Shown here piece after piece: positions 27,141 through 53,603 of a stretch of 64,000 nucleotides of DNA. Within the stretch, counting starts at the first letter, position 1; each line of letters starts with the position of its first letter. The translations under genes and the position numbers were made by a program. The notes under the pieces were generated by a model. It was not told where the DNA came from and did no database searches. It worked only from the letters and a program-made list of their open reading frames with translations. Location of the stretch: positions 62,001 through 126,000 of the forward strand of contig QBML01000009.1 in the NCBI GenBank assembly GCA_003242085.1. The letters are read 5' to 3'. Source of the DNA: Pseudanabaena frigida (GTDB lineage: Bacteria > Cyanobacteriota > Cyanobacteriia > Pseudanabaenales > Pseudanabaenaceae).

Positions 27141-27444
27141 GAACGAATGATTTAATTAACTAATCTTAACGCAAGCAGTCTTGGATCTGTCTAAACGGCA
27201 TCAGAATCCATCTTTGGATCGATAATTCGGCAATGTATTGAGATTAAAAATAGTTTACGCAACGCCTTATATCTAGATTTTAAGCAAGCTTTTGATGTCA
27301 GTATTATGATGCTACTTTCAAAATCAAATCGGTAGCAACTCAGTACCTCATATTAAAAAAGCTAATTTGCAGGCTTTGTATGTAAATCAGCTTCATTGAT
27401 TTTTCGTTTTTAATTGTGACGAAGTACTTAGAAATATAAATACC
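27141..27444. other. ftsH upstream region and left flank of the transposon
   Basis: About 300 bp without a gene. It must hold the ftsH promoter. The last 5 bp before the transposon terminus (atacc) do not match the 5 bp beyond the other end exactly. I see no tRNA fragment or attachment-site duplicate here. Confidence 0.5.
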
Positions 27445-27658
27445 TGTCGATTAACACATTATTTGTCGCCGTTAACAAATTAGTGTCATACCTTTAAACT
27501 AAGTCATTGCAGGCATTTCAACTCTTTTACTATATGTAGGCTCAAAAGCTTAGTTTAACAACTTAATTGTCGTGAAGCAGAATTTTAACAATTTAGTTGT
27601 CATTTCTTCAAAAGCTAGAGTTCTTGATTCTTCAAAGAGATTAACGAATTGATTGTCA
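27445..27658 (+). repeat. tnsB-side transposon end with five TnsB-type binding repeats
   Basis: After the terminal TGTCGA come five related 18-bp units with the form TTAACAnnTTAnTTGTCn: 27451-27468, 27472-27489, 27555-27572, 27585-27602 and 27641-27658. The first two are close together and later ones are spread, like the TnsB-site arrangement in Tn7-like ends. All point the same way. Confidence 0.85.
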
Positions 27659-27712: not shown

Positions 27713-29434
27713 ATGCGTGAATATCCTTCTTTAGATGACGTATCACAACAATCATCGTTAAATAGTGAATCAGACTCTCAAGAGTCAAATAAGATAGCGA
27801 CTCAGCTTTCTAGTGAAGCAATTCTCAAACAGGAAGTAATTCTTAGTTTGCTAGAACCTTGTGATCGAAGCACCTATGGGCAAAAACTAATTGAGGCTGC
27901 GGCTAGACTGGGTTGTTCTACTCGGACTGTTCAGAGGTTGGCAAAGAAATGGGAGCAAGTGGGTTCGGTCGCTTTTACTCAAACCCAAAGAGCCGACAAA
28001 GGACAACATCGAATTGATGATGACTGGACAAAGTTTATTACCAAGACTTATGTAGAGGGAAATAAAAATAGTAAGCGTATTACACCCGCACAGGTAGCGA
28101 TCCGTGTAAAAGCTAGGGCGCATGAACTAGGGCTGGAGAAATATCCCAGCCACATGACCGTCTATAGAGTTTTAGAACCTGTGATCGCAAAGCAGCAGGA
28201 ATCTAAGAGCGTTCGGAGTGTGGGCTGGAAAGGATCGCGACTGGCACATAAAACAAAAGATGGTTCATATCTTCAGCCGTCGTATAGCAATCACGTTTGG
28301 CAGTGCGATCATACTCGCGCAGATGTCATGTTGGTAGATCAACATGGAGAGCTAATAGGTCGCCCTTGGTTAACGACGGTGGTTGACTCATATTCGCGTT
28401 GCATCGTAGGTATCAACTTAGGTTTTGACGCACCAAGTTCTCAAGTGGTGGCTTTAGCTTTGCGTCATGCAATTTTGTCGAAAAATTATGGCTTAAACTA
28501 TAAGCTCAATTGTGAATGGGGTACTTATGGAAGACCAGAGCATATCTTTACTGATAGCGGCAAGGACTTTAGATCGAATCACGCCCAGCAAATTTCTTTA
28601 CAGTTAGGTATTAGTTGGCATTTTCGTGATCGCCCTTCAGAGGGCGGTATAGTCGAGCGTCCGTTTGGAGTTTTGAATACACAGTTTTTCTCTACACTAT
28701 TGGGGTATACAGGCTCAAACGTACAAGAACGTCCTGAAGATGCTGAAAAGAGTGCCTGTCTCACATTAAGGGAATTAGAACTGCTGCTGGTACGATTCCT
28801 AGTAGATCAATACAATCAAAGCCTTGATGCACGTATGGGAAATCAGACAAGGTTTCAACGATGGGAAGCGGGTTTGATTGCTACCCCAAGTACAGTTTCA
28901 GAAAGAGAGTTAGATATTTGCTTAATGAAGCAAACTCGACGCACTATCTATAAAAACGGCTACGTGCAGTTTGAAAATCTGATGTATCGAGGCGAAAACC
29001 TCGCAGGGTATGCAGGCGAAAATGTAGTGCTGCGATACGACCCTAGAGATATGACAACTGTCTGGGTGTATCGCCAAGAAGGTGGTGTAGAAGTATTTCT
29101 TGCTCGTGCTTTTGCTCAAGATCTGGAAACGGAACAGGTATCTCTGGATGAGACGAAGGCTGCTAGCCGACAGATTAGGAAAGAAGGCAAGACAATTAAC
29201 AACCGAGCTATTTCAGAAGAGGTGCGCGATCGGGATATTTTCCTATCTCAAAAGAAAAACCGCAAACAGAGGCAGAAGGAAGAACAAGCTCTTGTACGAG
29301 AAGGATCTCAAAGCTCTTTACCAAAGCCAATAGAAGAGGCAGAGGGGTCAGAGGAACAACCTAAACCTAAACTAATTGCAGAGCGCCCCAAGGTTCTGGA
29401 TTACGACCAACTTCAAGATGATTATGGATGGTAA
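27713..29434 (+). CDS. tnsB: Transposase TnsB (DDE recombinase) of the V-K CAST
   Basis: 573 residues, about the size of ShCAST TnsB. N-terminal DNA-binding helix-turn-helix parts (residues 40-155, with LGCSTRTVQRLAKKW) bind the end repeats. The RNase H-fold catalytic domain has Asp199 (WQCDHT), Asp281 (FTDSGKDF) and Glu315 (GGIVERPFG), the DDE triad, all present. The C-terminal mu-type barrel and a charged tail (residues 480-573) should contact TnsC. It cuts and joins the 3' ends of the element. No TnsA is encoded, as expected for V-K, which makes cointegrates. It is followed after 3 bp by tnsC. Confidence 0.95.
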   Translation: MREYPSLDDVSQQSSLNSESDSQESNKIATQLSSEAILKQEVILSLLEPCDRSTYGQKLIEAAARLGCSTRTVQRLAKKWEQVGSVAFTQTQRADKGQHRIDDDWTKFITKTYVEGNKNSKRITPAQVAIRVKARAHELGLEKYPSHMTVYRVLEPVIAKQQESKSVRSVGWKGSRLAHKTKDGSYLQPSYSNHVWQCDHTRADVMLVDQHGELIGRPWLTTVVDSYSRCIVGINLGFDAPSSQVVALALRHAILSKNYGLNYKLNCEWGTYGRPEHIFTDSGKDFRSNHAQQISLQLGISWHFRDRPSEGGIVERPFGVLNTQFFSTLLGYTGSNVQERPEDAEKSACLTLRELELLLVRFLVDQYNQSLDARMGNQTRFQRWEAGLIATPSTVSERELDICLMKQTRRTIYKNGYVQFENLMYRGENLAGYAGENVVLRYDPRDMTTVWVYRQEGGVEVFLARAFAQDLETEQVSLDETKAASRQIRKEGKTINNRAISEEVRDRDIFLSQKKNRKQRQKEEQALVREGSQSSLPKPIEEAEGSEEQPKPKLIAERPKVLDYDQLQDDYGW

Positions 29435-29437
29435 ATA

Positions 29438-30268
29438 ATGACTGAAGCACAGGCAGTTGCCCAGCAACTAGGCGGAATTAAGCTAGATAGCGATGACTTG
29501 CGAATAGAAATCGAACGACTAAGACGTAAGAACATTGTAGAACTTACACAGGTACAAGCTTTACATGACTGGCTGGAGGGTAAGCGCAAATCAAGGCAAT
29601 CTTGTCGAGTAGTTGGAGAATCTCGTACTGGTAAGACAGTTGCTTGCGATGCATATCGGCTAAGGCACAAGCCGACACAGGTAGCAGGTCAGCCGCCGAT
29701 TGTGCCTGTCGTCTACGTTCAGCCTCCTCAAGATTGTGGTTCTAGGGAATTATTTGGGGTAATTATCGAGCATCTGAAGTATCAGATGACGAAAGGAACG
29801 GTTGCCGAAATCCGCGATCGCGCGTTTCGGGTGCTTAAGGGTTGTGGAGTGGAGATGTTGATCGTTGATGAGGCTGACCGTCTTAAACCCAAGACCTTTG
29901 CTGATGTGCGCGATCTTTTTGATAAATTGGCGATTGCTGTGGTTCTGATTGGAACCGACCGACTCGATGCCGTAATTAAGCGGGACGAACAAGTATATAA
30001 CCGCTTTCGCGCTTGTTACCGATTTGGAACCATTTCAGGAGAGCAGTTTAGGCAGACTGTAGAAACTTGGGAATTAGATGTTCTACGATTGCCAGTAGCT
30101 TCTAACTTGACAAGCAAAGACATGATGCAAATCTTGGCTAAAGCTACAGGAGGCTACATAGGCTTGCTGGATATGGTATTGCGCGAAGCAGCAATTCGGT
30201 CATTGCAAAGAGGGCTAAAGAAAATTGATAAGGCGATTCTAAAAGAGGTATGTGAGGAGTATAGATGA
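29438..30268 (+). CDS. tnsC: AAA+ transposition regulator TnsC
   Basis: 276 residues, the same length as ShCAST TnsC. Walker A is GESRTGKT (60-67) and Walker B MLIVDEAD (Asp144, Glu145). TnsC forms ATP-bound filaments on DNA that link the Cas12k/TniQ target complex to TnsB and set the insertion distance. Its stop overlaps the tniQ start by 4 bp (ATGA), so the two are translationally coupled. Confidence 0.95.
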   Translation: MTEAQAVAQQLGGIKLDSDDLRIEIERLRRKNIVELTQVQALHDWLEGKRKSRQSCRVVGESRTGKTVACDAYRLRHKPTQVAGQPPIVPVVYVQPPQDCGSRELFGVIIEHLKYQMTKGTVAEIRDRAFRVLKGCGVEMLIVDEADRLKPKTFADVRDLFDKLAIAVVLIGTDRLDAVIKRDEQVYNRFRACYRFGTISGEQFRQTVETWELDVLRLPVASNLTSKDMMQILAKATGGYIGLLDMVLREAAIRSLQRGLKKIDKAILKEVCEEYR

Positions 30269-31843: not shown

Positions 31844-32737
31844 ATGATTAAATTTGATTTAAATAGTATTGAAGAATATTTAGTAACTAAGTTTGAGAAA
31901 TCCCTTTTTAAAGCATCAATTTCATATTTATCTAATTCAAATGATCCATTAAGGTTCAATAGCTTTGCTTACTCTATGAGAGAATTATACAGACATGTAC
32001 TGTCTAGATTATCACCAGAAGATCAAGTTATAAAGTGCGATTGGTTTAATATCAAAGATAGTAACGAGGGTAAATCCACCAGAAAACAGAAGTTAATGTA
32101 TGCAATTCAAGGTGGACTAGCAAATGCTTATGTCATAGATGAACTAGGCATAGAAGTTGATGATTTTTGGTTAAAGATAAAAGATAGTCAAGATTTACTC
32201 TCAAAATACACGCATGTGAATGAAGATACTTTTGATATTTCAAGTGAAGATTGTGATAAATTTTCAGTTCAAATATTAGAGTCTCTTTGGACAATTTTTA
32301 AGGCTATATCTGATACAAGACATGAAATCATATGTCAACTTTATCATCAAATAAGTGATGAAATGATTGATACTTTCGTCTCTAATACTATGTCAGAAAT
32401 TGATATATTAAGCACTCATTCTTATATAGATTCTGTAGATATTGAAGAATATAAAATAATAGATATTGATTCCAAAAAAATATACTTTTTTGGCAATGGG
32501 AATGTTTGTGTTTCACTGAATTATGGTAGTAGTAGAGATGAACCTACAGAATTACAAGACGAATTCCCCTTTGAAGTTAACTTTTTTAGCCCTGTGAATG
32601 ATCTAAAATCAATACAGATAAATCCTGAAGAAATATTTATTGATACTAGTAGTTGGTTTGGAGATGGTGATAATGATGACGAGTTAAACAACGACAGTAT
32701 TCAGATTGATCATGATAACAGCTTTGATGACTTTTAA
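31844..32737 (+). CDS. AT-rich cargo gene, possible pPIWI-associated-nuclease-type protein
   Basis: 297 residues, far more AT-rich than its neighbours and with codon use unlike them, so recently acquired. LFKASISYLSNSNDPLRFNSFAYSMRELYRHVLSRLSP and STRKQKLMYAIQGGLANAYV...LLSKYTHVNEDTFDI resemble a domain I know from predicted nucleases associated with pPIWI systems and stand-alone defence genes. The last 100 residues are acidic (DGDNDDELNNDSIQIDHDNSFDDF). No pPIWI gene is present. It is bracketed by two direct copies of a 90-bp repeat. Function unproved. Confidence 0.5.
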   Translation: MIKFDLNSIEEYLVTKFEKSLFKASISYLSNSNDPLRFNSFAYSMRELYRHVLSRLSPEDQVIKCDWFNIKDSNEGKSTRKQKLMYAIQGGLANAYVIDELGIEVDDFWLKIKDSQDLLSKYTHVNEDTFDISSEDCDKFSVQILESLWTIFKAISDTRHEIICQLYHQISDEMIDTFVSNTMSEIDILSTHSYIDSVDIEEYKIIDIDSKKIYFFGNGNVCVSLNYGSSRDEPTELQDEFPFEVNFFSPVNDLKSIQINPEEIFIDTSSWFGDGDNDDELNNDSIQIDHDNSFDDF

Positions 32738-39562: not shown

Positions 39563-42500
39563 TTATTCTTCGCTAAAATCCTCGTCCATATCTATAGGAA
39601 TTTGATCTTCTTCTTTATTTTTTTTACGTTCCTTGCGTTTTTTTTCTTTTTGTTCCAATTCTTTCACTAGCTCAGGATTGCCTTTGATAAATTCATCGCG
39701 CAGGGATTGGGAATCGGGTTCTTCAATATGAAAATCAGGGGCGATTTCATCTTGCAAACGCAGTTCCCACTCGTAGGCTTTGGCGGGGTGATATTTCCAG
39801 AAGACTCTGTGGGCAACGGCTAGGGATGGGTCTTTCTGGCATTTTTCATCGACTCGACTGGGGAAATAGCGGGCGACGAGGTGTGACCAGTCATAGTCTT
39901 TTTTGTTTTGGGCGGTGCTGAGTTCTGACCACCATGTTTTGGGCTTTGTCCATTGGGGTTCGAGCAATGTCCAGAGGGCGGCGCTATTGATCATGACACC
40001 ATCATCAAGATCCATTTTGAAGGTTGCATCGACTTCACGGGGCGGATCGCTGGGTTTGGTGGGTAGTGCGCCACGTTCGGCGATTTCTTGGACTTTGGTG
40101 ATGAGGGCTTGCAGTTCTTCTTGGAATTTGCATAGTTCGCTATAGCGTTTTTCGGCTGTGGCTCTTGCTTTACTATCACCTTGGCTACGCGCCGCCATGA
40201 GATCGTTGATTTCACCGATGAGGTGGTTTTGGTCGGGGAGGAGGTGGTCAGCGAGGAGGGTTTGCAGGGTGTTGTCTGTCCATTGGTGAATGGGGATGAT
40301 GGCGACGAAGTTCTTTTTGGTAGATGAGATGGGGAAGTAGATCGGGCGTTGGTCGTAGCGTTTGACGTGAACTTCTTTGAAGTAGTCTTGGCGCAACCAT
40401 TCGCGGAGTGCTTTTTTTGTGATTTGGGAGCCATGTTCTGCCCATGCCTGATGGATGGGGGCGGCGGCGGGGTGGATGAGGCTGTCGCCGATTTCGGGGA
40501 GGTCTTGGCTATAGGCGGAGAGGTAGAGGATGGGTAGAGAAAAGCTAGGCTGGCTGAGCGGAGTCGAAGCCAAAACCCCACTAGCATCTTCGACTGCTCT
40601 TGCTACGTTTACCGTCCCTTCGACTTCGCTCAGGGAGCTAGATTTAGAAAACCGTCCCAACGCTAACCCCACAGCATAGGAAATTATGTCTTGGGCGGTG
40701 GGTAGGTCGTAGTGGGGATGGTAGGGGGGAAGGGGTGTGCCTGCGGGTCGGTCTACGGCGGTTTGCGCCCATGTTTGGGCGGTGCGCCAAGGGCTAGGAC
40801 GGGGGCTAATAAATTCTACGGATGTCTCGCGTCCTGCTTCATGTTCGCTAAATGCTTTTTCAAGTTCACTAAATATTTCGTCTGCGGATTCTATGGGGAA
40901 TAGGGGAAGTCGGTTTACATCTCCAATAACAAAGTTTACGGTTGGATTTAATGAACTAAGTAATTGCCTTGATCTATCACTATTCATCAAACAAGTAATA
41001 TTTTCCAAATTAGCACCATAAACTGATGATCCTGCATCACTAAATATTCCTGCATGACGGTGTAATCTTGCAGAAAATCTATTGCCAATTGGAGTAAAAG
41101 CTACCCCCTGCCTAAAATAATAGATTTCGTTACGAATGTATTGACCAGGGCTTTTTAATCTATATTTTTCTATCCAAACTCTTACCTCTAACCCATCTAA
41201 ATTCCATAGAACTATGTCAGATAGTGGTTCAAACCATTCACGACCAGCAGCACCTTTAATAAAAGGAATCCACTTAAGTTTCCTAAGATCTGTAATGTTT
41301 GTAATATCTGAATAAGGACAAATTAGGACATCTGACAACTTTACTTCCCAGTAATTTCTTTCAAATCGAATGCCATTACGAGTGCCCATTCCCTGTCCCA
41401 CAAATGAGGTATCCTCAATTTTTGGAGTTTCGGCGTAGCGTTTGAGAAAGGCATCATCCCACCAGTAAATTAGAGGCTTTTCTTTGATGACATTAAAATT
41501 TTGTGTTTTGAACTCATATCTTCCCACTTGAGCCAATAAAGCCGCCCGTTTATTTGGTGTTTGTTGAGGAGCTTCGCTAATCTGTAAAGTCTTCGGTTGA
41601 ATTGCAATACTTAATCGATCAGAAGGTTTTAATTTTTGAAAAATAGTCATAGAAACCGATACAACTTGACCAGAAATTCCTTCAAACGCACCCGTTTCTA
41701 AATCCCCTAACAATCGCAAATCATAATTCTCAATCAAAAACTCCCGAATCGCTGAATACTGACTGATAAACATCCAATTTCGCATCGTCAGCAACGCCGA
41801 AAAACCACCATCCTTCGCCAACTCCAAACCACGCTGCAAAAACGCCGCATAGAGATCCGCCTTCCCCTTGGGGTAATGCTTCGATAAATAGACAGCATCC
41901 GCCATCTTACTCGTCCCCTGATACGGCGGATTCCCAATCACCAGATCATACTGACCCTCCCGCACCATCCGCACAAACCTCACCCCCGCCGCCAACTGCT
42001 CACCCCACAACCGCACCCCCAGATCATCACTGCCCGATCTCTTATTTAAAAACTTTTCCAGTGACGCTAAAATCGCTTGATGCTCTCTCAGAGTTGCTGA
42101 AGTTTCCCAAAATTGACCCACTAGACCTTCAAGTACATCTCCTTCTCGATCTTGGAAAGCCTTACCCACCGCCTGATTCACCTTCAACAAACTTCCCCAC
42201 ACATCCGCACCCTTCAGCGCCTCCACAATCTGCATCGTCAGTTCTGGCGGAATCCCCGTCTCCTGCTCCACCTCATCATAAAAATTCAACAACTCAGGAT
42301 CATCCTTCGGCAAATTCGCCAAATTCAAATTCGCCGCCACCAAATTAATCTGCTTCGGTGCAGCCTTTTTGCAAAACCCCTTCGCCTTTAGCCACAACGC
42401 CGCCGCCGCCATCTGCACCGCCCGCGCATCAATATCAATCCCATAGAGATTATTTTCTAAAATGCTATTGGCGATCGCCGCATCCGTCCAAACTTCCCCC

Positions 42501-43711
42501 CGATGCCGCGCCTCCTCTTGATAAAAAGCAAACAGCAAATCAAAAGCAATCACAAGGAAATGCCCCGACCCACAGGCAGGATCGATCAGTTTGAGATTGC
42601 GGAGGGAAAGATTGCGCTGATTGGCTTCGTTTACCGTCCCTTCGACTTCGCTCAGGGAGCTAGGGAAACTATGCTGGCTGAGCGAAGTCGAAGCCAAAAC
42701 CTCACTAGAATCTCTGACTAAGTTTGCCGTCCCTTCGACTTCGCTCAGGGAGCTAGATCTCACCCAATACTTCCAACGCTGTTCTTGTTCATTCTCAATG
42801 GGCATCAACTCATCCAGCGCCACATCTCCCGCCTCGCGCCTTTGCCGCCAATCTTGTCGCCTTGCCTCTAGATTTTCGAGAGTGCGATCGCTCACTGCCT
42901 CCGCAACCCAACCATTCGCCGCACAAATATCCAGCCATTGATTATTCAAGCTATTTTGCAATAGCCACTCCACCATATAGCGCTCCGTAAACATTTGCGT
43001 CTTACTGGCGATTTCGTGCGGCTCCACCTTACCGCCATCATTCATCTTTTGATCAATACTCTCCCGTTCAGGATCATTCCAATATTGATAGATCCAGCCT
43101 AAGGTCGTATCGTCGCGCCACACATCGGGATCGAGCTTCTCTAACTCCTCCACTAGATAGCGCAAAGTAGTCGCTGGCATCGGGATTAAAGCGATCGCGC
43201 CACCACGCCCAAACAGACCCGAAAGATCGAGCGCCAGTTCGTCAAATAGTAACCGCAGTAATAGCCCAAAGCCTTCCGTCTCATCCTGCAATAGCTCAGG
43301 TGCAAACTCCCGAAATTCTTTGTATGCTTGGCTTTGCCATCCCCCCGTCAATACCTTCGGCTTGATTAAATCCATCGCCTCCAGATGCTTGATGACTGCT
43401 AACCGATTCAGCCATGTCGCCGCCGCCAGTTTTTCGAGAGCGCACCGATGGCGATCGGACATTTCCTGCCGTTGCTTCTCTGACACCCTCCCTTTTTTAA
43501 GCGTCAGTTCCCCCTTCACCTGCATCGCCAGCCAATCCTCTAACCTTTGGCGGTTACGGCGGCGTTCTTCATCGAGCGTCACCCGATCTAGCTTTGCCCC
43601 CATCAAATAAGCGGACTCGACAGCATTATGTAAGTCATTTAGCAGGCGATCGCGCAAATTGCGAATGGTTTTAGAAAGTTGAGCTTTAGCAGAAGTCGTA
43701 AGGTAGGACAT
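39563..43711 (-). CDS. pglX: BREX adenine-specific methyltransferase PglX
   Basis: 1382 residues, longer than usual. Methyltransferase motif I DPACGSGHFLV starts at Asp377 and the catalytic NPPY is at 594-597, so an N6-adenine methylase is expected. BREX uses it to mark host DNA and it is needed for exclusion. Two stretches, about residues 318-361 and 1024-1056, are encoded by a dispersed palindromic repeat (SSSLSEVEGT...VLAST-LSQ motifs), which explains the extra length. The reading frame stays open through both. The tail is Lys/Glu-rich. It starts 7 bp after brxC. Confidence 0.93.
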   Translation of the reverse strand: MSYLTTSAKAQLSKTIRNLRDRLLNDLHNAVESAYLMGAKLDRVTLDEERRRNRQRLEDWLAMQVKGELTLKKGRVSEKQRQEMSDRHRCALEKLAAATWLNRLAVIKHLEAMDLIKPKVLTGGWQSQAYKEFREFAPELLQDETEGFGLLLRLLFDELALDLSGLFGRGGAIALIPMPATTLRYLVEELEKLDPDVWRDDTTLGWIYQYWNDPERESIDQKMNDGGKVEPHEIASKTQMFTERYMVEWLLQNSLNNQWLDICAANGWVAEAVSDRTLENLEARRQDWRQRREAGDVALDELMPIENEQEQRWKYWVRSSSLSEVEGTANLVRDSSEVLASTSLSQHSFPSSLSEVEGTVNEANQRNLSLRNLKLIDPACGSGHFLVIAFDLLFAFYQEEARHRGEVWTDAAIANSILENNLYGIDIDARAVQMAAAALWLKAKGFCKKAAPKQINLVAANLNLANLPKDDPELLNFYDEVEQETGIPPELTMQIVEALKGADVWGSLLKVNQAVGKAFQDREGDVLEGLVGQFWETSATLREHQAILASLEKFLNKRSGSDDLGVRLWGEQLAAGVRFVRMVREGQYDLVIGNPPYQGTSKMADAVYLSKHYPKGKADLYAAFLQRGLELAKDGGFSALLTMRNWMFISQYSAIREFLIENYDLRLLGDLETGAFEGISGQVVSVSMTIFQKLKPSDRLSIAIQPKTLQISEAPQQTPNKRAALLAQVGRYEFKTQNFNVIKEKPLIYWWDDAFLKRYAETPKIEDTSFVGQGMGTRNGIRFERNYWEVKLSDVLICPYSDITNITDLRKLKWIPFIKGAAGREWFEPLSDIVLWNLDGLEVRVWIEKYRLKSPGQYIRNEIYYFRQGVAFTPIGNRFSARLHRHAGIFSDAGSSVYGANLENITCLMNSDRSRQLLSSLNPTVNFVIGDVNRLPLFPIESADEIFSELEKAFSEHEAGRETSVEFISPRPSPWRTAQTWAQTAVDRPAGTPLPPYHPHYDLPTAQDIISYAVGLALGRFSKSSSLSEVEGTVNVARAVEDASGVLASTPLSQPSFSLPILYLSAYSQDLPEIGDSLIHPAAAPIHQAWAEHGSQITKKALREWLRQDYFKEVHVKRYDQRPIYFPISSTKKNFVAIIPIHQWTDNTLQTLLADHLLPDQNHLIGEINDLMAARSQGDSKARATAEKRYSELCKFQEELQALITKVQEIAERGALPTKPSDPPREVDATFKMDLDDGVMINSAALWTLLEPQWTKPKTWWSELSTAQNKKDYDWSHLVARYFPSRVDEKCQKDPSLAVAHRVFWKYHPAKAYEWELRLQDEIAPDFHIEEPDSQSLRDEFIKGNPELVKELEQKEKKRKERKKNKEEDQIPIDMDEDFSEE
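40545..40642. repeat. Dispersed palindromic repeat inside pglX (C-terminal copy)
   Basis: GGCTGAGCGgAGTCGAAGCC-type half and CTTCGACTTCGCTCAGGGAG half, joined by a spacer, in the same layout as at 42629-42757. It is read in frame as part of PglX. Confidence 0.8.
42629..42757. repeat. Dispersed palindromic repeat inside pglX (N-terminal copy, one and a half units)
   Basis: Two copies of TTCGACTTCGCTCAGGGAGC (the half-unit preceded by ttaccgtccc or ttgccgtccc) flank a CTGGCTGAGCGAAGTCGAAG half. The whole stretch of 129 bp is a multiple of three and lies just upstream of methylase motif I. Confidence 0.8.
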
Positions 43712-49526: not shown

Positions 49527-50084
49527 TTAGCGCCTAATTACTATTTGATTAGGAGGAAGAAATACCTTTTCATGCTGTTTGATGGCTTGAGTATACTTTT
49601 GAGACTCGGTTTTGTATTCTTCAAAAGTCTGTAGTCTTTGCCCAAAAGCTCTAAGAGTAAGTGCTAACTTCTGACCAACTATCCCAGTCCAAAAAGGGAT
49701 GACAGGCTGACCGTTACAAATAGCAGAAAGAGCCTTCTGTGGATCAAAATCAAGAAAAGTGGGCTTTTTGCCATATTCAGATTGCCACAACATAAACTTT
49801 CGCATAGCTTTGTATTCAAACGGCTTATCAAAAAAGTCAGGTTCTACCTTTTTAACTTCATCTAAAGTCTCTTGAGACAATTCAAAACTCAGCCCCGCAG
49901 TCAGAAAATATTGCATGACCGTCAATTGCAATAAATCTGACACCGTGTAATAGACATTACGTCCTGTCCCAGCAGTATTTACAGTTGGTACAATCACCCC
50001 TTTCAATCGCCAATGCTGTAACTGACGGGAAGTACAGCCTGTGATTTTCGCAGTTTCAGTACTTGTAAAAAAGTTACTACTCAT
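49527..50084 (-). CDS. cvkR: MerR-type regulator, CvkR-like (Cas V-K repressor)
   Basis: 185 residues. The N-terminal MerR-like winged helix is FFTSTETAKITGCTSRQLQHWRLKGVIVPTVNTAGTGRNVYYTVSDLLQL. The C-terminal part has no metal-binding Cys set. It is divergent from cas12k, the position of CvkR in other V-K CASTs, where it represses cas12k and other transposon transcripts. Sites sharing AACA-nnn-TGTTACTATA precede both tnsB and cas12k, and a weaker catagtgt overlaps its own start codon. Confidence 0.85.
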   Translation of the reverse strand: MSSNFFTSTETAKITGCTSRQLQHWRLKGVIVPTVNTAGTGRNVYYTVSDLLQLTVMQYFLTAGLSFELSQETLDEVKKVEPDFFDKPFEYKAMRKFMLWQSEYGKKPTFLDFDPQKALSAICNGQPVIPFWTGIVGQKLALTLRAFGQRLQTFEEYKTESQKYTQAIKQHEKVFLPPNQIVIRR

Positions 50085-52280: not shown

Positions 52281-52506
52281 TAGTTTAATAGCGCCGCAAT
52301 TCATGTTTCTTTGAAGCCTCTGTGTTGTGATAAATATGGGTTAGTTTGGCTGTTGTAAGACAGTCTTGCTTTCTGACCCTAGTAGCTGCCAACCCCGATG
52401 CTGCTGTCTGAATAAGACAGGAATAAGGTGCGCTCCCAGCAATAAGGGCGCGGGTAGACCGATATGGTGGCTACTAAATCACCCCCGATCGAGGGGGAAC
52501 CCTCTC
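52281..52506 (+). ncRNA. V-K CAST tracrRNA
   Basis: The segment starts with taatagcgccgcaattcatg and contains gtcttgctttctgaccct, ggtgcgctcccagcaataag and caccccc-gatc-gagggggaa. These blocks match the ShCAST tracrRNA as I recall it. The 3' end aaccctc is the short anti-repeat that pairs with gggtt of the CRISPR repeat. Same strand as cas12k and the array. Ends are set by comparison only and may differ by several bases. Confidence 0.9.
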
Positions 52507-52705: not shown

Positions 52706-53261
52706 GTCGCAATCGCCCTCCCAGACATAGGCGGGTTGAAAGGAGAACATGGGTTGGTACAAGTTTTTAAAAAAAAGTCGCAATCGCCCTCCCAGACATA
52801 GGCGGGTTGAAAGACCGCAGTTAATGCCTCAACATATACTGCTACCGCTGTCGCAATCGCCCTCCCAGCCATAGGCGGGTTGAAAGTTAAACTTTGATGG
52901 ACATTGCCCATGCGATCGCGAGTCGCAATCGCCCTCCCAGACATGGGCGGGTTGAAAGACAATATACTCCCGCCAATCACTATGATGCAGGTGTCGCAAT
53001 CGCCCTCCCAGACATGGGCGGGTTGAAAGCTATTAGAGTTGGGTTTGATAGTTTGAAGCGGCGATGTCGCAATCGCCCTCCCAGACATGGGCGGGTTGAA
53101 AGAATAGCCATTTTATTGATTGCGACCCCAGCAAAGTGTCGCAATCGCCCTCCCAGACATGGGGCGGGTTGAAAGATAGTCTTAGAAAAGTCTTAGAGCA
53201 GATAATTGTCAGTTATTTGCCATAAGGTCGCAACCGCCCTCTGAGACATGGGCGGGTTGAG
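52706..53261 (+). CRISPR. CRISPR array of the V-K CAST, 7 repeats plus 1 degenerate
   Basis: 37-nt repeats begin gtcgcaatcgccctcccaga and end ggcgggttgaaag, at 52706, 52777, 52850, 52922, 52993, 53066 and 53138. The third has ccagccat for ccagacat, and the seventh has an extra g (38 nt). Spacers are 34, 36, 35, 34, 36 and 35 nt. After a 51-nt spacer comes a degenerate repeat (53227) with aaccgccctctgagac and without the final aaag. Drift increases toward the transposon end, so the leader end should be near cas12k. Open frames across the array are artefacts. Confidence 0.97.
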
Positions 53262-53299
53262 CTAGAGTAAATACCTCAATCTTTCAAGATAGGTAATAA

Positions 53300-53328
53300 G
53301 AGGGTTGAAAGAGAGCACCACGTTGACA
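53300..53328 (+). ncRNA. Delocalized homing crRNA unit: truncated repeat plus tRNA-Val spacer
   Basis: gagggttgaaag (only the 3' part of the repeat, 53300-53311) is followed by the 17-nt spacer agagcaccacgttgaca (53312-53328). The spacer is identical to a stretch of the tRNA-Val gene (minus strand of 53517-53533), and base 18 differs. The bases before the protospacer are GTT, a fitting Cas12k PAM. Truncated-repeat units aimed at tRNA genes are the known homing device of V-K CASTs. Confidence 0.93.
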
Positions 53329-53362
53329 CATTATTTATTTTTTATATAAGCTTAAGCTCCGA

Positions 53363-53472
53363 CGACATCAATTTGTTGTCGCCACTAAACGACATTAATT
53401 AGTTAAACTGGAAGTTAAAGAGCGTAAATGACACTAATTTGTTAACGATGACAAATAAAGTGTTACTCGACT
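53363..53472 (-). repeat. CRISPR-side (target-proximal) transposon end with four TnsB-type repeats
   Basis: Inverted copies of the TnsB-type unit are at 53363-53380, 53390-53407, 53429-53446 and 53449-53466, of the form TGACACTAATTTGTTAAC. Reading inward from the tRNA, the end is AGTCGAGTAACACTTTATTT, matching TGTCGATTAACACATTATTT of the other end except for the terminal base and two inner ones. A TGT 6 bp further out (53476-53478) is an alternative terminus. Confidence 0.8.
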
Positions 53473-53480
53473 ACTACAAA

Positions 53481-53554
53481 TGAACACAAGTGGACTCGAA
53501 CCACCGACCCCCACGATGTCAACGTGGTGCTCTAACCAACTGAGCTATGCGTTC
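53481..53554 (-). tRNA. tRNA-Val (anticodon GAC), CAST target
   Basis: A 74-nt cloverleaf folds fully: acceptor gaacgca/tgtgttc, D-stem gctc/gagc, anticodon stem ccacg/cgtgg with loop ttgacat (GAC), and T-stem ggtgg/ccact with ttcgagt. CCA is not encoded. The homing spacer of the transposon covers the D-arm-to-anticodon segment. Because insertion fell beyond the 3' end, the gene stays intact. Confidence 0.96.
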
Positions 53555-53603
53555 TGACGGACTAATAATATAACATAGTGAAAGTGAATTCAACAGAGAA
53601 TCT

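Follow-up and report, generated by a model that had tools for sequence, protein, structure and literature searches.

Results

A type V-K CAST ends beside a tRNA-Val gene

The window (the whole stretch of 64,000 nucleotides of Pseudanabaena frigida DNA analysed here) contains an element of 26,028 bp, measured from its right-end (RE) tip at 27445 to its left-end (LE) tip at 53472. From RE to LE, it carries tnsB, tnsC, tniQ, a BREX operon, a gene for a MerR-type regulator, cas12k, a tracrRNA, a CRISPR array, a truncated repeat (R*) and a guide, followed by the LE tip and, beyond it, tRNA-Val:

27445–27474, plus strand: RE tip, TGTCGATTAACAC..., TGT; 5 mismatches in 30 relative to the LE tip
27713–29434, plus: tnsB (DDE transposase); phmmer match to TnsB of PDB 7svw, 804 bits; Mu-transpos_C
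29438–30268, plus: tnsC (AAA+ / TniB); Pfam TniB, 114.6 bits
30265–30780, plus: tniQ; phmmer match to TniQ of PDB 7n6i, 252 bits
32921–49441, minus: cargo BREX operon (BrxHI, BrxD, PglZ, PglX, BrxC, BrxB, BrxA, BrxE); PADLOC, NCBIfam, Pfam
49527–50084, minus: MerR-type regulator in the position of CvkR (position as given in PMC9938897); Pfam MerR_1, 51.5 bits
50335–52257, plus: cas12k; NF038191, 958.5 bits (cut-off 150 bits); Cas12k of PDB 7n3o, 869 bits
52285–52517, plus: tracrRNA, one copy found; nhmmer, 226.5 bits, with a profile built in this analysis that has the window sequence among its members
52498–52505, plus: tracrRNA anti-repeat AACCCTCT; 8 contiguous pairs with AGAGGGTT (53299–53306)
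52706–53263, plus: CRISPR array, 8 repeats of ~37 nt and 7 spacers
53300–53311, plus: truncated repeat R* (gagggttgaaag = GAGGGTTGAAAG, 12 nt), outside the array
53312–53328, plus: homing (anchor) guide agagcaccacgttgaca, 17 nt
53472: LE tip; terminal base T, A in relatives
53481–53554, minus: intact tRNA-Val(GAC), directed toward the transposon; ARAGORN and Rfam concordant
53517–53533, minus: protospacer in tRNA-Val, starting at tRNA position 22 and covering the anticodon
53534–53536, minus: PAM GTT, in the D-loop part of the tRNA gene

The frames of tnsB, tnsC, tniQ and cas12k are open over their full length, and cas12k has a single match in the whole 5.39-Mb genome. No match to TnsA was found among the element's 15 main ORFs (12 by Pfam; PglZ, PglX and BrxC by PADLOC only). 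In the array, repeat 7 carries one extra base and the last (8th) repeat is degenerate. The cargo gene set (BrxE, A, B, C, PglX, PglZ, BrxD and BrxHI) is what we take to be BREX type 6. BREX systems have been tabulated in 40 cases in Tn7-like transposons, cyanobacteria among them (PMC8649781). SSLSEVEGT-type peptide repeats occur in two or more parts of PglX (39563–43711) and may derive from in-frame insertion of a small DNA repeat. Between tniQ and BREX, the ORF at 31844–32737 matches PADLOC Aga_Nuclease (273.7 bits) as well as Pfam predicted pPIWI-associating nuclease domains.

A 29-nt unit between the array and LE matches the tRNA

R* and the guide together form a 29-nt unit (53300–53328) placed between the array and LE. 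A preliminary description of this DNA had claimed a truncated repeat followed by a 17-nt perfect match to tRNA-Val with a GTT PAM, and all of these coordinates check: between the guide and the protospacer at 53517–53533 (minus strand), there are 0 mismatches over 17 nt. In the 64 kb, the 17-mer occurs once on the plus strand and once as a reverse complement (53517–53533), and the first 10 guide bases are present only at these two sites. A 17-nt inverted match is expected by chance anywhere in the window with a probability of ~7e-6 (128,000 x 4^-17), and we reject a chance match. The preliminary description had also placed the transposon tip at 53472, about 61 bp from the PAM; the distance holds, with 61 bases (53473–53533) separating the tip from the PAM, but the tip base itself is altered relative to other elements. 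Promoter-like sites in the region show no excess over chance (3 found versus 2.1 expected).

In the window, the end of R* lies 48 nt (36 + 12) from the end of the last, degenerate repeat. The idea that R* is an in-register array repeat without its 5' part was dropped as a general rule; in relatives, the distance from the last recognisable repeat is spread over 40 to 353 without a peak.

The guide follows the adjacent tRNA in related elements

The window's guide was also sought without using the tRNA. As a query, we used the repeat end plus the window guide with two bases left free, in 386 genomes of the phylum and 217 of one family; it is present in 2 and 13 of them, respectively (14 genomes in all), and 13 of the 14 could be read as loci, the window included. 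The preliminary description had held that the same spacer at unrelated sites would speak against homing; an inverted match to tRNA-Val(GAC) is found in 11 of the 13 loci (all except L267 and L269), 158–256 nt away and always with a GTT PAM. At L269, no tRNA is seen in the only 720 bases before the contig end. L267 has the same R* and guide with no tRNA in 1517 bases, which makes it a real candidate for an element inserted elsewhere; the cas12k match nearest to it is incomplete, with an inner stop. Among the loci of the survey described below, the pattern is confined to copies of the window itself, L003 (the same locus as L185), L016 and L153. The guide of L016 is identical to that of the window despite a Cas12k that is 57% identical, and the other carriers of the pattern show the variant bases found in the tRNA of their own host.

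The survey comprised a first set of 60 V-K loci (the window, 19 from contig searches and 40 stretches from further genomes) and a held-out set of 74 (80 new stretches less 5 duplicates and 1 too short), some of them near-identical (L108/L109, L115/L116). Guides were located in 95 of the 134 loci (42 of 60 in the first set and 53 of 74 held out); loci without one include cut contigs, broken elements and loci lacking a recognised tRNA. At 93 loci, the adjacent tRNA on the opposite strand is the target, with 23 isoacceptors represented and 0, 1 or 2 mismatches over 17 nt in 63, 24 and 6 cases, respectively. Since the guides were chosen for matching a tRNA with 0–2 mismatches, the PAM is the sole independent test, and it is GTN in 92 of the 93 (GTA 47, GTT 22, GTG 18, GTC 5); the lone exception, GCG, is at L128, beside a truncated cas12k. 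When the guides are compared with tRNAs of other amino acids, 2 or fewer mismatches are seen in 38 of 7,564 comparisons.

Targets start most often at tRNA positions 21–24 (50 loci), then 55–69 (18), 28–51 (13) and 17–18 (12). A G-T is conserved in both the D-loop and the T-loop of tRNAs, and the two commonest registers seem to put the PAM on it, an arrangement that would let one rule serve many tRNAs. The distance from the PAM to the tip is centred on 59–63 (52 of the 83 loci with a recognised tip; 10 of the 93 have none). As a side observation, guides for tRNA-Ala(cgc) in register 22–23 (e.g., L092, L095, L158 and L184) lack the octamer GCGATCGC in 10 of 11 cases, mostly through a single differing base (A, T or G) at guide position 15; L217 alone keeps it, with a perfect match to its own tRNA.

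These data bear on the possibility that the 17-nt match is a leftover tRNA fragment, such as an attachment-site duplication of the integrase type, rather than a guide. The 3' regions of tRNA genes are often integration sites, and within the genus L082 has another gene at the same tRNA-Val, one encoding a type I restriction subunit R domain. However, the copy is inverted and internal to the tRNA (from position 22, not at the 3' end), it abuts the end of a CRISPR repeat exactly, it stops at 17 nt next to a GTN PAM, and the same layout tracks 23 isoacceptors in relatives. We consider an attachment-site remnant extremely improbable and reject it, as it is contradicted by the covariation with other tRNAs.

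The insertion site and the state of the window copy

Same-genus loci become homologous to the right flank at a point between 53472 and 53480, which is what an insertion of the element there would produce; the exception is L058, with a start at 53588. A precise empty site was not found among these relatives, in which the sequence to the left of the tRNA varies. What L074 and L082 have in common with the window's left flank is just a stretch of 53 or 48 bp, corresponding to the end of a restriction-subunit gene. In the window, a short remnant of this gene, which codes for a type I restriction subunit R domain, lies beside RE at 27271–27323, and in the same two congeners the remnant's stretch adjoins the same tRNA-Val. 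The tRNA-Val spot may thus be a turnover hotspot.

At the place homologous to the LE tip, the window has AGT instead of TGT, while the RE tip is TGT. In the 23 relatives compared (aligned by eye), ACA ends the aligned terminal repeat, 52–63 nt from the PAM; at the aligned place, the window reads ...CGACT|ACTAC, i.e., ACT instead of ACA. The sole nearby ACA in the window would give an alternative tip at 53478, 55 bases from the PAM. No matching 5-bp duplication flanks the window element (ATACC outside RE, ACTAC outside LE). We discounted this as specific evidence that the window insertion is odd: an exact 5-bp target-site duplication is seen in 0 of the 13 V-K elements with both ends located (the window and 12 relatives, 12 of 12 of which lack it), the end repeats being mostly clear in these 13. 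The flanks of L104 agree at 4 of 5 duplication bases. In this survey of ends, the match to the right end of L112 was weak, no right end was located for L095 or L107, and in 6 of 20 cases tnsB lay beyond the 20 kb examined or was not found. V-K elements transpose replicatively (PMC11406308), and we conjecture that repeated use of one site and later recombination could separate the flanks.

The AGT tip and the absent duplication mean that, judging from sequence, the window copy may have lost its mobility, so that the unit would once have guided an insertion and now sits in an immobile copy. We regard such a fossil as rather unlikely. The guide still matches its target perfectly, tnsB, tnsC, tniQ and cas12k still have full-length frames, and the tracrRNA, R* and guide are all present; moreover, since none of the sampled elements has an exact duplication, the tip base is the only feature peculiar to the window copy.

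The tracrRNA anti-repeat pairs better with R* than with the array repeat

The last parts of the tracrRNA are a hairpin and, after it, the anti-repeat. In the window, the anti-repeat forms 8 contiguous pairs with R* and 5 with the array repeat GGGCGGGTT, where pairing stops because of a C-T mismatch at pair 6. We compared the two pairings in the 30 first-set loci that have an array, an anti-repeat and a tracrRNA not fused to the homing unit. R* pairs better in 28 of 30 (1 worse, 1 tied), and its duplex energy is stronger in 28 and weaker in 2. The mean pairing of R* with the tracrRNA of its own locus is 8.73 versus 5.82 when R* is shuffled between loci, with 0 of 5000 shuffles as high; for the array repeat, the mean is 5.23 versus 5.99 shuffled.

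As the pattern had been spotted in the first set, the same measure was then applied to the 74 held-out loci, using a slightly different guide search. R* is better in 39 of 45 (5 worse, 1 tied) and its duplex stronger in 39 and weaker in 6; its mean pairing is 8.49 versus 6.43 shuffled (highest shuffle, 7.58), and that of the array repeat 5.49 versus 6.10. Combined, R* is better in 67 of 75 loci, worse in 6 (L005, L159, L164, L181, L208 and L216) and tied in 2 (L091 and L150), counts that overstate independence because the elements are related. By distinct combinations, 40 of 48 are better, 6 worse and 2 tied, and by distinct 9-nt anti-repeats 16 of 19 are better and 2 worse. In 13 of the 75 loci, the array repeat is known from a single copy; without them, R* is better in 56 of 62. 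Elements at tRNA-Leu(tag) break the rule: there is a pair-6 mismatch in the R* of L150 and L159, the array repeat of L159 is the better tracrRNA partner, and no anti-repeat was read in L157.

The difference is concentrated at pair 6, which is broken in 61 of 75 array repeats versus 4 of 75 R* sequences. The anti-repeat base at this position is mostly A or T: the anti-repeat/R* pair is A-T in 38 and T-A in 29 of the 75, and the anti-repeat/array combination is A-C in 27 and T-T in 27. The array repeat is paired at position 6 in 8 A-T, 3 T-A and 3 G-C cases. The comparison suggests, on sequence grounds, a tracrRNA tailored to the homing guide and not to the guides of the main array.

The better pairing of R* might instead be functionless, the arrays being constrained by borrowed adaptation or processing machinery while the tracrRNA drifted with R* as its only free partner. 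Such drift is a serious possibility, although we lean against it. The array repeats are self-complementary 37-mers in which positions 1–5 and 7–9 of the segment that binds the anti-repeat are paired in the repeat's own predicted hairpin in 88–98% of 57, as would suit a constrained repeat. Position 6, the one most often mismatched, is paired in that hairpin in only 47% of the 57, on which ground we rejected the hairpin as the sole cause of the position-6 mismatch; furthermore, the anti-repeat has A or T at this position and R* changes with it, while the array is mismatched in 61 of 75.

In one clade, a tracrRNA copy is fused to R* and the guide

In 9 of the 60 first-set loci (L007, L009, L096, L103, L114, L115, L116, L126 and L130), a copy of the tracrRNA continues without a break into R* and the guide. 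In L114 (4361–4591, minus strand), for example, the sequence reads ...GAATTCTC-TTT-GAGAATTGAAAG, after which come 17 nt matching the neighbouring tRNA-Arg, with a GTT PAM. Seven of the nine fused guides match the adjacent tRNA with 0–1 mismatch and that of L130 has 4 mismatches; for the guide of L116, no target was found nearby. When the 55-nt tail is folded with RNAfold, a hairpin between R* and the anti-repeat is predicted in L096, L103, L115, L116 and L130, another fold is preferred in L114, L126 and L009, and L007 forms a different stem.

In a Cas12k tree (FastTree, 53 of the 60 loci, midpoint root, support values not displayed), the nine fused loci fall in one clade, which also includes the unfused L118. 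Five of the nine also have a second tracrRNA, along with an array and an anti-repeat that could be read; in all 5, the first tracrRNA is a better pairing partner for the array than for R*. With the fused copy of L114 as a query, 15 genomes of one family yielded nine near-full-length copies reaching the R* end, in 6 genomes. The pattern could be read in 7 of 11 loci (the nine copies and two short matches), several of these seven being the same loci as the nine above; five guides have at most 1 mismatch to the adjacent tRNA, one has 4 and one has no match. The 53 held-out loci that have a guide showed no fused unit. The fused units are candidate natural single-guide RNAs for homing, predicted from their sequence.

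Discussion

The 29-nt unit is of a kind already described for V-K elements as R* and anchor spacer (PMC9938897), and the preliminary description's reading of it as the homing spacer of a V-K element agrees both with the full anatomy of the element and with that published R*/17-nt architecture. Taken as a whole, we are strongly confident that R* and the guide form the gene for the homing crRNA of this type V-K CAST, in which the array guides would be handicapped and homing favoured.

In the mechanism that we propose, R* and the guide would be transcribed in line with the array, and R* would pair in vivo with the tracrRNA anti-repeat through the 8 contiguous pairs found in the sequence. The resulting guide RNA would load Cas12k, which would recognise the GTT PAM lying in the D-loop of tRNA-Val(GAC) together with the 17-nt target that follows. 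TniQ, TnsC and TnsB would then insert the element ~61 bp downstream, just past the 3' end of the tRNA, so that the tRNA stays intact; the Cas12k targeting and the insertion steps are taken by analogy from known V-K systems. Because R* is a better match to the tracrRNA than the array repeats are, we infer that the tracrRNA preferentially serves homing, with the array guides presumably held at a one-mismatch handicap.

More broadly, V-K guide classes might be sorted by their pairing with the tracrRNA, the homing repeat making a continuous stem with the anti-repeat and the array repeats being kept at one mismatch, at pair 6, such that homing outcompetes jumps directed by the array, and one Cas12k clade might have completed the separation by fusing a duplicated tracrRNA to the homing unit and leaving the first tracrRNA to the array. 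We put this forward tentatively, as having close to an even chance of being right. If the tracrRNA is indeed tuned to the homing repeat, this would be a simple reason for the preference for homing over the array and would bear on the choice of repeat in tools built on V-K systems; if the fused guides are what they appear to be, evolution has reached the layout of the engineered single guide. Together, the tracrRNA/homing-repeat match and the fused guides make guide choice in V-K CASTs directly testable. In the CAST literature searched, a set without key V-K homing papers, we found no prior mention of the anti-repeat/R* match or of natural fused guides.

Comparison with known systems

A study of cyanobacterial V-K elements describes 118 CAST systems with 37-nt repeats, an R* of ~12 nt, a 17-nt anchor spacer and a GTN PAM located 46–82 nt from LE, with the tRNA directed toward the transposon (PMC9938897). 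The window shares the ~12-nt R*, the 17-nt spacer, the GTN PAM, the PAM–LE range, the tRNA pointing toward LE and the order of cas12k, regulator, tracrRNA and array; in the features that this source sets out, it shows no difference of layout, its particulars being the tRNA-Val(GAC) target and the altered left tip base. The R*/anchor-spacer unit is called a delocalized crRNA in reviews (PMC11656645; PMC12719977), and its role in V-K homing is summarised in PMC11406308, PMC11656645 and PMC12719977. According to one of these, integrated CASTs are not adjacent to protospacers of their own arrays, and V-K homing proceeds via the delocalized crRNA, whose origin it calls unclear (PMC11656645). Another gives tRNA-Leu as an example of a V-K target (PMC12719977); in the window, it is tRNA-Val. 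The Cas12k, TnsB and TniQ of the window are related over nearly their full length to those of ShCAST (PDB 7n3o/7pla, 7svw and 7n6i/7oxd, respectively). From ShCAST, the window element differs by its BREX cargo.

Type I-F3 CASTs are Cascade-based and are not known to have a tracrRNA. In those with atypical guide repeats, the homing guide is likewise set apart from the array guides (PMC11406308). In the window, by comparison, the distinction lies in the pairing with the tracrRNA. For Cas9, there is a natural single-guide RNA, in which the tracrRNA is fused to the guide and which serves autoregulation of Cas9, not transposition. The fused units of L114, L096 and others resemble it, unlike the window, where the tracrRNA and R* stand separate.
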